Below, in pieces: positions 18,958 through 50,087 of a DNA stretch of 64,000 bases (position 1 is the stretch's first letter; every line of letters begins with the position of its first letter). Source of the DNA: Elusimicrobia bacterium HGW-Elusimicrobia-3 (GTDB lineage: Bacteria > Elusimicrobiota > Elusimicrobia > Elusimicrobiales > UBA9959); NCBI GenBank assembly GCA_002840355.1, contig PHAL01000007.1, positions 1 through 64,000 on the forward strand. The letters run 5' to 3'. A program made the position numbers and the translations under genes. The notes beneath the pieces are model-generated. The model worked only from the letters and a program-made list of their open reading frames with translations. It was not told the origin of the DNA and made no database searches.

Positions 18958-20103
18958 ATGGCTGGAACGCTGGAACTTAAGGATATAAGCAACAAACTGG
19001 AAGAGCTGGACGCGCTGCTCGCCGCGCTGGGCAAACTTTACGGCCTGGAAGACAAGCGCGCCAAGCTGCGCGAGAAGGAAGCCGTCTCAGGCTCGGGCGA
19101 CTTCTGGAACGACGCGGCCAAGGCCCAGGCGCACATGAAAGACCTCAACGACCTCAAGAAGGGCGTGGAGCTGCTCGATACCGTGGCCCGGGAGCTGGAA
19201 GATTTCAAGGTGCATTTCGAGCTGGCGCGCGACGCCGGCGACGCCAGCGAGCTGGGCGTCATCATGGACGGGCTGCAGGCGGTGGAGAAGAAACTGCGGA
19301 TCCTGGATTTCGAACTGAAACTGTCCGACCCCAACGACAAGCTGGACGCCATCATCAGCATCCACGCGGGCGCCGGCGGCACCGAGGCCTGCGACTGGGC
19401 CCAGATGCTGCTGCGCATGTACACCCGCTGGGCGGAGCAGAAGGGCTTCTCGTTTTCCATTACCGATTTCCTGCCCGGCGAGGAAGCCGGCGTGCGCGGC
19501 GTGACCGCCATCATACGCGGCCGCTACGCTTACGGCTACCTCAAGAGCGAGGTGGGCGTGCACCGCCTGGTGCGCATTTCGCCGTTCGACGCCAACAAGC
19601 GGCGCCATACCTCTTTCTCCTCCATCGACGTGCTCGCCGACATCGACGACGACATCGTGATCAAGATCGAGGACAAGGACGTGCACATGGACACGTTCCG
19701 CTCCGGCGGCGCCGGCGGCCAGAACGTCAACAAGGTGGAAACGGCCGTGCGCCTGACCCACGTGCCGACGGGCGTCATCGTGAGCTGCCAGGTGGAGCGC
19801 AGCCAGCTGAAGAACCGCGAGATGGCCATGCGCCTGCTCCGGGCCAAGCTCTACGAAATAGAGATGGACAAGAAGCGCACCGAGATGGAGCGCCACTACG
19901 ACGCCAAGGGCGACATAGGCTGGGGGCACCAGATCCGCTCCTACGTGTTCATGCCCTACCAGCTGGTCAAGGACCTGCGCACCGGCGAGGAAAGTTCGCA
20001 GATAGACGCCGTGATGGACGGCGCGCTGGACCCTTTCATGCATTCCTACCTCTCCTGGGTGGCCGGCGGCAGGAAGAAGCGCAGCGTCAGTTCCGAAGAT
20101 TAA
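18958..20103 (+). CDS. prfB: Peptide chain release factor 2
   Basis: A 381-aa protein. The tripeptide [12 protein letters not shown] contains SPF, the codon-recognition motif that marks RF2 (UGA and UAA). [19 protein letters not shown] holds the GGQ that triggers peptidyl-tRNA hydrolysis. The coding frame is continuous from ATG to stop: there is no in-frame UGA near codon 25, so the autoregulatory +1 frameshift of many prfB genes is absent. The -10-like TAAAAT 6 nt before the ATG and the lack of a Shine-Dalgarno suggest a leaderless message. Confidence 0.96.
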
Positions 20104-20113
20104 CGCGTGCCGA

Positions 20114-20240
20114 GGGACCTGCGGGGGCGTCCTCGCAGGGGCCTCGCGAGGCCCGAGCTTGCGTAAGCGCGAGGGCCGAGTGAAAGAGCCGGGCCACGGT
20201 GTGGCCCGGCGTACCCGGAGAGGACGCCCCTGTAGGTCCC
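20114..20240 (+). repeat. Structured repeat element, copy 1 (candidate non-coding RNA or 5' leader)
   Basis: 127 bp between prfB and tatD. The closing arms 20114-20134 and 20220-20240 pair by 18 bp (7 outer pairs, a 3x3 loop, 11 inner pairs). The 85-nt core has a first hairpin (GGCCC...GGGCC around CTTGCGTAAG) with an internal GAG/CGA loop, the conserved strand GAGTGAAAGAG, a GGCCAC-GGT-GTGGCC hairpin and CGTACCCGGA. The core is nearly identical to the copy at 48440-48565 (opposite strand), while the arms differ but still pair. It ends 7 nt before the tatD ATG and is followed by TTTT, so it may be part of the tatD leader. Confidence 0.75.
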
Positions 20241-20247
20241 TTTTACA

Positions 20248-21054
20248 ATGCTAATAGAAACACACGCTCATCTCAACGACAAGGCTTTCGACGCCGACCG
20301 GCCCGCGGTGCTGGACAAGGTTTTCGCCGCCGGGGTGGAGCGGATAGTGGAGATCGCCTGCCAGCCCTCCGACTGGGCGCAGGGCGAGGCGTTCTGCGCC
20401 GCCTACCCGGGCAAAGTAGTCTGCGCCTTCGGCGCGCATCCCGAATATACCCGCACCCTGCCGGCCGACCTGATGGCGCGGCTGGAAACTTACATGGCCA
20501 AGCCCTGCGCCGCGGCGCTGGGCGAGGTGGGCATAGATTACTGGTGGGACATAGGCACCAAAGAAGAGCAGCTGGCCCTGCTGGGCTCGCAACTGCCGCT
20601 CTGCTCAAAATTCAACAAGCCGGCGGTGTTCCACGCCCGCAACGGCAAGACCTCCGGCGAGAACGCCTACGCCGACCTGCTGGAGTCTTTGAAGGCCTGG
20701 GACTACCGCCCGGCCCGGCGCTTCCGCGGGGTGCTGCACTGCTTCTCGGGCTCCTGGGAGGACGCGCGGGCGGGCCTGGACCTGGGCCTGTGCCTGGGCG
20801 TGAACGGGACTTTTACCTATAAGAAGAACGACGGCCTGCGCGAGACGGTGCGGCGCGCCGGGCTGGACAACATCGTGCTGGAGACGGACTGCCCCTACCT
20901 GCCGCCGCAGGGCGCCCGCGGCCAGCGCAACGATCCCTCTTTTATCCCGGAGATAGCGGCCATGGTGGCGGGGCATTTGGGGTCAAGCAACCGCGAGATG
21001 GCGGACAAGACCACCGCCAACGCCATCGAGCTGTTCGGGGATCTTGTCAAATAA
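20248..21054 (+). CDS. tatD: TatD family metal-dependent deoxyribonuclease
   Basis: A 268-aa TIM-barrel protein. Metal and catalytic residues are in ETHAHLND (HxH), the Glu of ALGEVGIDYWW, the His of PAVFHARNG, HCFSGS and ETDCPYLPP. TatD enzymes are 3'-5' exonucleases or DNA-repair nucleases in the cytoplasm. The start follows the structured element by 7 nt; the only purine-rich stretch upstream (GTAGG) is inside the element's closing stem, so initiation could depend on its folding. The metH-like gene follows after 9 nt. Confidence 0.93.
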   Translation: MLIETHAHLNDKAFDADRPAVLDKVFAAGVERIVEIACQPSDWAQGEAFCAAYPGKVVCAFGAHPEYTRTLPADLMARLETYMAKPCAAALGEVGIDYWWDIGTKEEQLALLGSQLPLCSKFNKPAVFHARNGKTSGENAYADLLESLKAWDYRPARRFRGVLHCFSGSWEDARAGLDLGLCLGVNGTFTYKKNDGLRETVRRAGLDNIVLETDCPYLPPQGARGQRNDPSFIPEIAAMVAGHLGSSNREMADKTTANAIELFGDLVK

Positions 21055-45775: not shown

Positions 45776-48418
<2,643 letters not shown>

Positions 48419-48439: not shown

Positions 48440-48565
48440 GGAGGACAAGGGTACGCCTTCTCCGGGTACGTTCGGCCACACCGTGGCCTCTCTCTTTCAC
48501 TCGTGCTCGGCGCTGCGCAAGCCTCGCACTCGTGAGGCCCCTGCGAAGGCATACCCTTGCCCTCC
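48440..48565 (-). repeat. Structured repeat element, copy 2 (candidate non-coding RNA)
   Basis: 126 bp between secA and lnt, matching copy 1 (20114-20240) when read on the minus strand. The closing arms 48440-48460 and 48545-48565 pair at 19 of 21 positions, though their sequence is unrelated to the copy-1 arms. The 84-nt core keeps GCAGGGGCCTC, GAGTGAAAGAG, the GGCCAC-GGT-GTGGCC hairpin and CGTACCCGGA. The first core hairpin changes from GGCCC/GGGCC to GTGC/GCAC while keeping the GAG/CGA internal loop. No T-tract follows on either strand. Confidence 0.75.
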
Positions 48566-48587: not shown

Positions 48588-50087
48588 ATGTTTAAAAAAA
48601 TCCCGCTGATCGTTTATCCCTTCCTAACTTCCCTGCTTCTCGTCCTCGCCTATCCGAAATTTGATTTGGGGTGGCTGGCCTGGGTCGGGCTGGCGCCTTT
48701 GTCCTATTACCTGCTCAAGGTGCGCACTTTCAGGGCGGCCGCGCTGGGCGGGCTGGGCTGCGGTTTCCTGTTCTACCTGGGCATACTTTACTGGATCTAT
48801 CCCACCATGCGGGCCGGCGGGGTGGGTCCGGCCGTTTCTGCGCTGGGGCTGGCGCTGCTGGCGCTGGTGCTGGCCGCCGAGTTCCTGGCTGTTTCGGCTT
48901 TCGGCTACCGGCTGCGCAAGGCGGGGCTCCAGGCCTGGCCTTATGTCTTTGCCCTGGGCTGGTTCGTCATGGAGTACGGGAAGATTTATCTGAGTCAGAA
49001 GGCGGTCTGGTTCCCTTGGTTCATGCTGGGTTATACCCAGGCGGACTTGCTGCCGCTGGTGCAGGTGGTTTCGGTGACGGGCATTTACGGGCTCAGCGCG
49101 GCCGTCTGTTTTACCGGGGCGCTGGCCGGCGCGGCGCTGGCCGCCGACTGCCGGCCCGCGGCCAGGCTGCTGCGCTTCTCGCCGGCCCTGCTGCTGGTGG
49201 CGGGACTCTGGTACTTCGGGCAGAGGGAATTGGCCGGCGCCTATGTGCCGGAGCGGTCGCTGCAGGTGGCCCTGCTGCAGCCGTCCATAGATCTTTACGC
49301 CAAGTGGGACGCCGCCGAGGCGGACAACATAAAGGCGAACATCGAGGGACTGCTGGCTGGCGCGGGGGGCGCCGACCTGGCCGTGTGGCCGGAGAACGCC
49401 CTGCCCTGCTGGATAGACGAGCCGGCTTGCGAGGGTTGGCTGCGCGGGGCCGCCGCGCGTTCGGGCGCGGAGGGGAATTTCGTGGGGTCGGTTTCCAAAG
49501 GGGGGGGGCGGCATGTGTCGGCCTTCCTGCTGGACAGTTCCGGCACGGTGCGCTCCTCGTACAATAAACGGCAGCTGGTGCCGTTCGGGGAATATGTGCC
49601 GCTGCGGGGGCTGCTGGGCAAATTTATTCAGCCGGTGGCCGCGCTGGGAGAGTTCGAACCCGGCGCCCCGCGGCAGAGGCTGGCGGAGTTCGGCGGGATA
49701 AAAATAGGTTCCGCCATCTGCTACGAGTCCATCTTCCCTAACCTGTTCGCCGGCGACTCCCGGGCCGGGGCGGACCTGTACGTGAATATCACCAACGACG
49801 GCTGGTACCTGGACACCGCCGCGCCGTACCAGCACTTTAACGCCAATATCTTCAGGGCCGTGGAGACGCGGCGCTCGGTGGTGCGGGCCGCCAATAACGG
49901 TATTTCCGGGGTTATAGATCCCTGGGGGCGCGTGCTGGCCCGCACGGCGCTCAACGAGCGTACGGTGCTGCGCGCGGCGGCTCCTGTGTATGTGGAACAG
50001 GCTTTCTTCCCCGCCTACGGCCACTGGGTCGCCGGGGCGGCCCTGCTGCTGGTGCTGGCTTTCCTGCTGGCGCTGCTCTTCGCCTAG
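48588..50087 (+). CDS. lnt: Apolipoprotein N-acyltransferase
   Basis: A 499-aa protein. Six or so N-terminal membrane helices (residues 5-200) are followed by a nitrilase domain with the catalytic triad: Glu in VWPENALP near residue 269, Lys in YNKRQLVPFGEYVP and Cys in GSAICYESIFP; NITNDGWY and RAANNGISG follow, and a last helix ends the protein. It adds the third acyl chain to lipoproteins in the periplasmic leaflet, a Gram-negative function. No Shine-Dalgarno is seen; TATAG lies next to the ATG. The 3' end overlaps the convergent PAS gene by 4 nt. Confidence 0.94.
   Translation: MFKKIPLIVYPFLTSLLLVLAYPKFDLGWLAWVGLAPLSYYLLKVRTFRAAALGGLGCGFLFYLGILYWIYPTMRAGGVGPAVSALGLALLALVLAAEFLAVSAFGYRLRKAGLQAWPYVFALGWFVMEYGKIYLSQKAVWFPWFMLGYTQADLLPLVQVVSVTGIYGLSAAVCFTGALAGAALAADCRPAARLLRFSPALLLVAGLWYFGQRELAGAYVPERSLQVALLQPSIDLYAKWDAAEADNIKANIEGLLAGAGGADLAVWPENALPCWIDEPACEGWLRGAAARSGAEGNFVGSVSKGGGRHVSAFLLDSSGTVRSSYNKRQLVPFGEYVPLRGLLGKFIQPVAALGEFEPGAPRQRLAEFGGIKIGSAICYESIFPNLFAGDSRAGADLYVNITNDGWYLDTAAPYQHFNANIFRAVETRRSVVRAANNGISGVIDPWGRVLARTALNERTVLRAAAPVYVEQAFFPAYGHWVAGAALLLVLAFLLALLFA

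Follow-up and report, generated by a model that had tools for sequence, protein, structure and literature searches.

A dispersed, strand-specifically folded hairpin element of Elusimicrobia that is probably a giant REP-like mobile element

The window analyzed here, a 64,000-nucleotide stretch from the genome of Elusimicrobia bacterium HGW-Elusimicrobia-3, holds two copies of a hairpin element, one lying between a prfB-like release-factor gene and a tatD-like gene, the other antisense to both of its neighbors, secA and an lnt-like gene (Table 1). Both copies had been picked out in an earlier sequence-only reading and both are present; a model search of the 64 kb revealed none beyond these two. 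Their cores, put at 84–85 nt by that reading, measure 85 nt in copy 1 and 84 nt in copy 2. Between the copies, the 21-nt closing arms agree at just 9/21 and 10/21 positions, yet within each copy they pair over their entire length (21/21, comprising 19 Watson-Crick and two G-U pairs), slightly exceeding the 18 and 19 bp counted previously. The core of copy 1 contains a short stem, P2 (GGG/CCC), and a branched hairpin, P3, whose internal loop is a tandem GA/GA and whose apical loop is GUAA, in addition to the linker and P4. An exchange of stems between the two cores (GGCCC/GGGCC versus GTGC/GCAC), flanking the GA/GA motif, was likewise found as described. Both copies fold far better than shuffled sequences (z-scores of -8.6 for copy 1 and -5.4 for copy 2), with 0/200 shuffles being equally good.

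Table 1. Positions and parts of the two element copies in the window
Feature	Position	Strand	Details
Copy 1, hairpin element	20114..20240	+	127 nt; E 1.5e-19 with model R2
Copy 1, gene context			prfB-like release-factor gene ends at 20103; tatD-like gene starts at 20248
Copy 1, 5' closing arm	20114..20134	+	21/21 paired with 20220-20240, 2 G-U
Copy 1, 3' closing arm	20220..20240	+	partner of 20114..20134
Copy 1, conserved core	20135..20219	+	P2, P3, linker GAGUGAAAGAG, P4
Copy 1, P4 hairpin GGCCAC-GGT-GTGGCC	20192..20206	+	
Copy 2, hairpin element	48440..48565	-	126 nt; E 4.1e-25 with model R2
Copy 2, gene context			secA (45776-48418) on one side, lnt-like gene (48588-50087) on the other; antisense to both
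Copy 2, 5' closing arm	48545..48565	-	21/21 paired with 48440-48460, 2 G-U
Copy 2, 3' closing arm	48440..48460	-	partner of 48545..48565
Copy 2, P4 hairpin GGCCACGGTGTGGCC	48474..48488	-	

The element is present in about 60 copies in its own 2.9 Mb genome (G000). Starting from a core pattern with five exact copies in that genome, we built a covariance model (R1) that returned 62 own-genome matches at E<=0.1, a few of them weak or duplicates of one copy; a second model (R2), built from 59 aligned copies, returned 63 matches at E<=0.001. While the E-values, which come from a short calibration, are rough, match numbers of 62 and 63 in a single genome exclude chance. Several copies coincide with contig ends (the start of C20 and the ends of C30, C36 and C37), and the true copy number is therefore likely above this count. 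The closest genome used, G014, yielded 45 matches. Matches were found in 34 of 295 Elusimicrobiota genomes, all but one of them within the family of the source organism; the element occurs across that organism's genus and family. Among the matches listed, the named records carrying the motif are mostly metagenome-assembled genomes of Elusimicrobia. A GC-rich copy also sits at the terminus of a contig labeled as Magasanikbacteria GW2011_GWA2_37_8 (L201, 4228-4331), which is probably mis-binned or chimeric. At the gathering score, two tRNAs alone matched Rfam over the window and neither lies on the element; at a relaxed threshold, matches in the loci of the copies do not overlap it, in line with the earlier reading, which had assigned it to no known RNA family. 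The literature searched contains no account of such a family in Elusimicrobiota, and we regard it as previously undescribed. The original observation is thus confirmed, and is larger than first reported.

An alignment of the own-genome copies (A3) comprises several subtypes with one architecture: a closing stem (P1), the short P2, the branched P3, a purine-rich linker and P4 with the motif CAC-GGT-GTG. P3 carries the tandem GA/GA in its internal loop and is capped by a GNA or GNAA loop, the commonest apical sequences being GTAA, GTA, GCA and ATA; the inner A-U and C-G pairs of P4 are invariant in 59/59 aligned own-genome copies. The proposal that pairing rather than sequence is retained was borne out, with 93.2% pairing in own-genome copies versus 70.1% in shuffled controls, and 94.5% versus 66.5% in other species. 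Covariation scores amounted to 0.517 (own genome) and 0.620 (other species) compared to about 0.16 upon shuffling, and fell to about 0.13 or less when partner columns were slid by one; fitting the alignments to the model favors its structure, but the effect size is far beyond that bias.

The fold is also strand-specific. In an arm alignment that scores G·T and A·C symmetrically, 300 G·T stand against 75 A·C pairs, and copies with a G·T majority outnumber those with an A·C majority by 122 to 11. In addition, in 193/195 copies the minimum free energy (MFE) is lower for the element strand than for the complementary one. The G·T excess and the lower MFE of the element strand together place the functional fold on the strand chosen by the sequence-only reading. 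A strand-specific fold is compatible with RNA as well as with folded single-stranded DNA (ssDNA) as in REP elements, and does not distinguish the two. Most or all of the genomes are metagenome assemblies, in which short-read errors at hairpins are possible; this concern is tempered by arms of 21–24 bp, which are short compared to usual read lengths, and by the occurrence of inversions in several genomes (see below).

Based on gene calls from a simple codon-based caller trained on the window, which are approximate, 206/207 copies lie outside genes (59/59 in the own genome, 44/44 in G014 and 103/104 in the others), with 94% of the window being coding. A typical site is located between co-directional or convergent genes. 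Convergent sites exceed divergent ones by 11 to 3, 11 to 4 and 25 to 6 in the own, G014 and other sets, respectively, which share some orthologous sites and are not independent; divergent gaps are under-used, although they hold most of the intergenic bases of the window. In co-directional gaps, antisense copies outnumber sense copies in the same three sets (26:11, 18:10 and 39:20). With respect to replication, raw GC skew gave no strand preference, and a small residual after removal of the gene-strand contribution (p=0.015) is not relied on. Where two copies lie close together, they are arranged head-to-head, both among own-genome and other-species copies (20/20 pairs, with spacers of 18–102 bp) and in G014 (all six close pairs), and the members of a pair often differ in subtype. 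The paralogous pairs L098 and L099 also have a similar spacer, suggesting that the two members of a pair may spread together.

Whole copies have dispersed. The recent paralogues L048/L051 and L149/L151 are 97.6–98.4% identical out to the tips of the arms, while their flanks are unrelated. Terminal inverted repeats are common to recent copies, and between older copies they are divergent but paired; the arms look unrelated due to rapid divergence after dispersal, not due to the absence of terminal repeats. Insertion of the core into pre-existing host palindromes was also considered and was rejected for recent copies, given that their arms are shared to the tips; core-only flips and core swaps do exist (L066/L173 and L092/L170).

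Comparison of orthologous sites revealed extensive rearrangement in place. Between G000 and G014, the element is inverted at 9/24 single-copy orthologous sites, with flanks that are mostly 84–97% identical. At L048/L151 the entire element is inverted; at L066/L173 the outer arms are kept, while the core is flipped and belongs to another subtype; at L092/L170 arms and orientation are kept and the core is different. Subtypes are replaced between flanks of up to 97% identity (L092/L170, L064/L183 and L066/L173), and about ten other G000 sites are empty or nearly empty in G014. The prfB-tatD site of window copy 1 bears a plus-strand element in G000, an inverted element of differing subtype in G014, G001, G006 and G017 (the G014 copy ending in a scaffold gap and the G006 copy being judged mainly by eye), and none in G008, G009 and G012. 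Moreover, younger copies interrupt older ones (L046/L142 and L057/L148) or adjoin remnants of older ones (L098 and L099). The sequence-only reading had favored an RNA fold over a mobile element; paralogues that share arms but not flanks, and sites that are empty, inverted, subtype-replaced or nested, leave this part of it unsupported. Among the orthologous sites compared, no clean empty site fixed the element ends to the base.

Smaller or related repeats accompany the element. The larger elements at L305, L313 and L306 in G014 and at L079 in the own genome (C11:8050-8173) contain an inserted mini-hairpin, GTGGAGCGNAGCGACAC, built of a stem, GA/GA, a second stem and a GNA loop. TTTCTTG or CGCAGTG often follows it, and a single copy holds as many as three (L305). 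Small dispersed repeats of cyanobacteria are also reported to insert in other repeats; they are much smaller than the element described here, and only the mini-hairpin inside it is of that size. At two further G000 positions (C9:21345, L329; C67:55953, L338), a different repeat core (GAACCCTTTGGGGAAGGGGGGCCCCGCTTCGGGGGGGAACCGCGCAACGGTTCCC...) is held in a similar hairpin frame, and the 3' tail of these repeats, CGACTNNGCATCTCGCGG, is also found beside many copies of the 126-base element. The region around C72:65973 of G000 (L339) contains an arms-only perfect palindrome, AGGCTGGCGAGGGCATGCCCTCGCCAGCCT, with no core, beside the same 3' tail; it is either a product of loss or an unoccupied target.

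Covariation of this kind raises the question of a host function. A structured RNA selected for its fold, either a family of trans-acting small RNAs or a cis element in 3' untranslated regions or between the genes of operons, would account for massive covariation, for loop conservation and for a fold that is specific to one strand and includes G-U pairs, as well as for the placement at gene ends. Indeed, the covarying multi-stem fold and conserved loops resemble those of structured RNAs in Rfam, while no family matches. However, the element is antisense to co-directional genes by about 2:1, such that read-through transcripts would mostly carry the wrong strand, its orientation flips at orthologous sites, and some sites are empty in relatives. 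Furthermore, a 3' T run as in intrinsic terminators follows just 6/195 copies, no constant neighbor gene was seen, and pair spacers down to 18 bp leave scant room for two promoters. We consider a host RNA unlikely.

The element might instead comprise neutral, inert hairpins, i.e. old inverted repeats whose pairing is maintained solely by hairpin-templated repair (quasi-palindrome correction) and which are flipped by recombination between the arms. Eight ortholog pairs of a young subfamily bear on this idea; the counts were restricted to them because the model shifts register from one subtype to another, which partly distorts a tally over all orthologues. In these, 15 arm pairs had changed on both sides with pairing kept, while eight were broken and six were wobble pairs. 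The double changes are far above the expectation for independent change and too many for independent point mutation at such divergences, and copying or replacement must therefore contribute; inversions, too, happen in place, as expected for inert hairpins. However, templated repair is strand-blind and would not give a 4:1 excess of G-T over A-C tied to core orientation, an asymmetry that already weakens this explanation, and the dispersal of recent copies, the conserved loops and the head-to-head pairing would be left unexplained. We therefore regard inert hairpins as quite improbable.

REP, BIME and REPIN sequences are GTAG- and CGTC-tagged palindromes (PMC3733652, PMC3116915, PMC3686654); REPs are intergenic, lie near 3' ends and form head-to-head dimers with 20–100 bp spacers, some of them inside other palindromes (PMC3733652). 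The present element is similarly a high-copy intergenic palindrome that is placed in co-directional and convergent gaps, close to where the upstream gene has its 3' end, occurring mostly in head-to-head dimers, often heterodimers, and sometimes inside other palindromes. In contrast to these systems, it is 126 nt long and branched (REPs have 20–50 nt) and is often inverted and subtype-replaced at orthologous sites. The ends of IS200/IS605 elements and the substrates of TnpA-REP are folded hairpins of which one strand is recognized, with mismatches, bulges and loops being important (PMC8266576), features that the conserved GA/GA motif and loops of our element may parallel; unlike in those systems, no element copy adjoins a Y1 transposase gene in the loci fetched, and a role as a substrate is putative here.

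A strict REP element mobilized by a RAYT/TnpA-REP Y1 transposase would match the head-to-head dimers, spacers, heterodimers and siting (PMC3733652) and the strand-specific folded substrate (PMC8266576), and the own genome encodes one Y1_Tnp protein. A 5' GGAG is present in 65/195 copies, compared to 1/195 further upstream, but the GTAG form of the GT(A/G)G tag precedes just 1/195. Moreover, none of 32 fetched Y1 loci, two of which represent the own gene, contains an element copy, and numbers of Y1_Tnp matches and of elements do not correlate across genomes: elements abound in G003, G015, G023 and G025, where nothing matched Y1_Tnp, and they are absent from G034 and G035 despite 8-9 Y1_Tnp matches there. 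Together with the size difference, these results render a strict REP assignment very doubtful. The only Y1_Tnp gene found in G000 (L139, C57:23500-27500) combines Y1_Tnp with a DnaA-like helix-turn-helix domain that falls just below its cut-off. On either side of this gene, a separate repeat, AGGGGACGCTGATGACTATATGAC, occurs in both orientations. By eye, we also saw no obvious R'/R'' core boxes of integron attC sites. A conventional miniature inverted-repeat element (MITE) derived from a DDE-type insertion sequence would be intergenic and numerous and would carry its terminal inverted repeats along, but we consider it highly improbable, as direct repeats of 4–9 bp are no more frequent at the ends than expected from shuffling (22 vs 35.4 at 4 bp), speaking against a target-site duplication, and as the arm sequence varies freely.

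We therefore favor, as the probable explanation, a giant REP/REPIN-like, non-autonomous mobile element whose working form is a folded single strand; we call it giant REP-like, and not REP or MITE, because it is longer and branched and lacks GTAG, a tie to Y1 and a target-site duplication. In this mechanism, the 126-nt strand would fold with its long closing stem around the conserved two-hairpin core, and an enzyme would recognize the folded strand and place new copies in intergenic positions, next to existing copies or within them. The recognized form is more likely to be ssDNA than RNA, and the part recognized may be the core, i.e. P3 with its tandem GA and GNA/GNAA loop and P4 with CAC-GGT-GTG; it would then be mobility that selects the fold. 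After insertion, the arms would change fast and in a paired manner by replacement and, probably, by hairpin-templated repair. More tentatively, the element could exemplify a novel class, a folded-single-strand mobile element moved by an enzyme other than RAYT/Y1 and preferentially entering its own resident copies. Intergenic sites would then become cassettes for hairpins, with orientation and core being swapped time and again.

Covarying paired arms are usually a strong sign of functional RNA; here, they occur in a mobile repeat that is flipped and replaced, which calls for caution in covariation-based RNA discovery. The family also offers an extensive natural collection of quickly changing, strand-specific hairpins, and through its head-to-head rule, inversions and nesting, the question of how REP-like palindromes are moved becomes directly testable.
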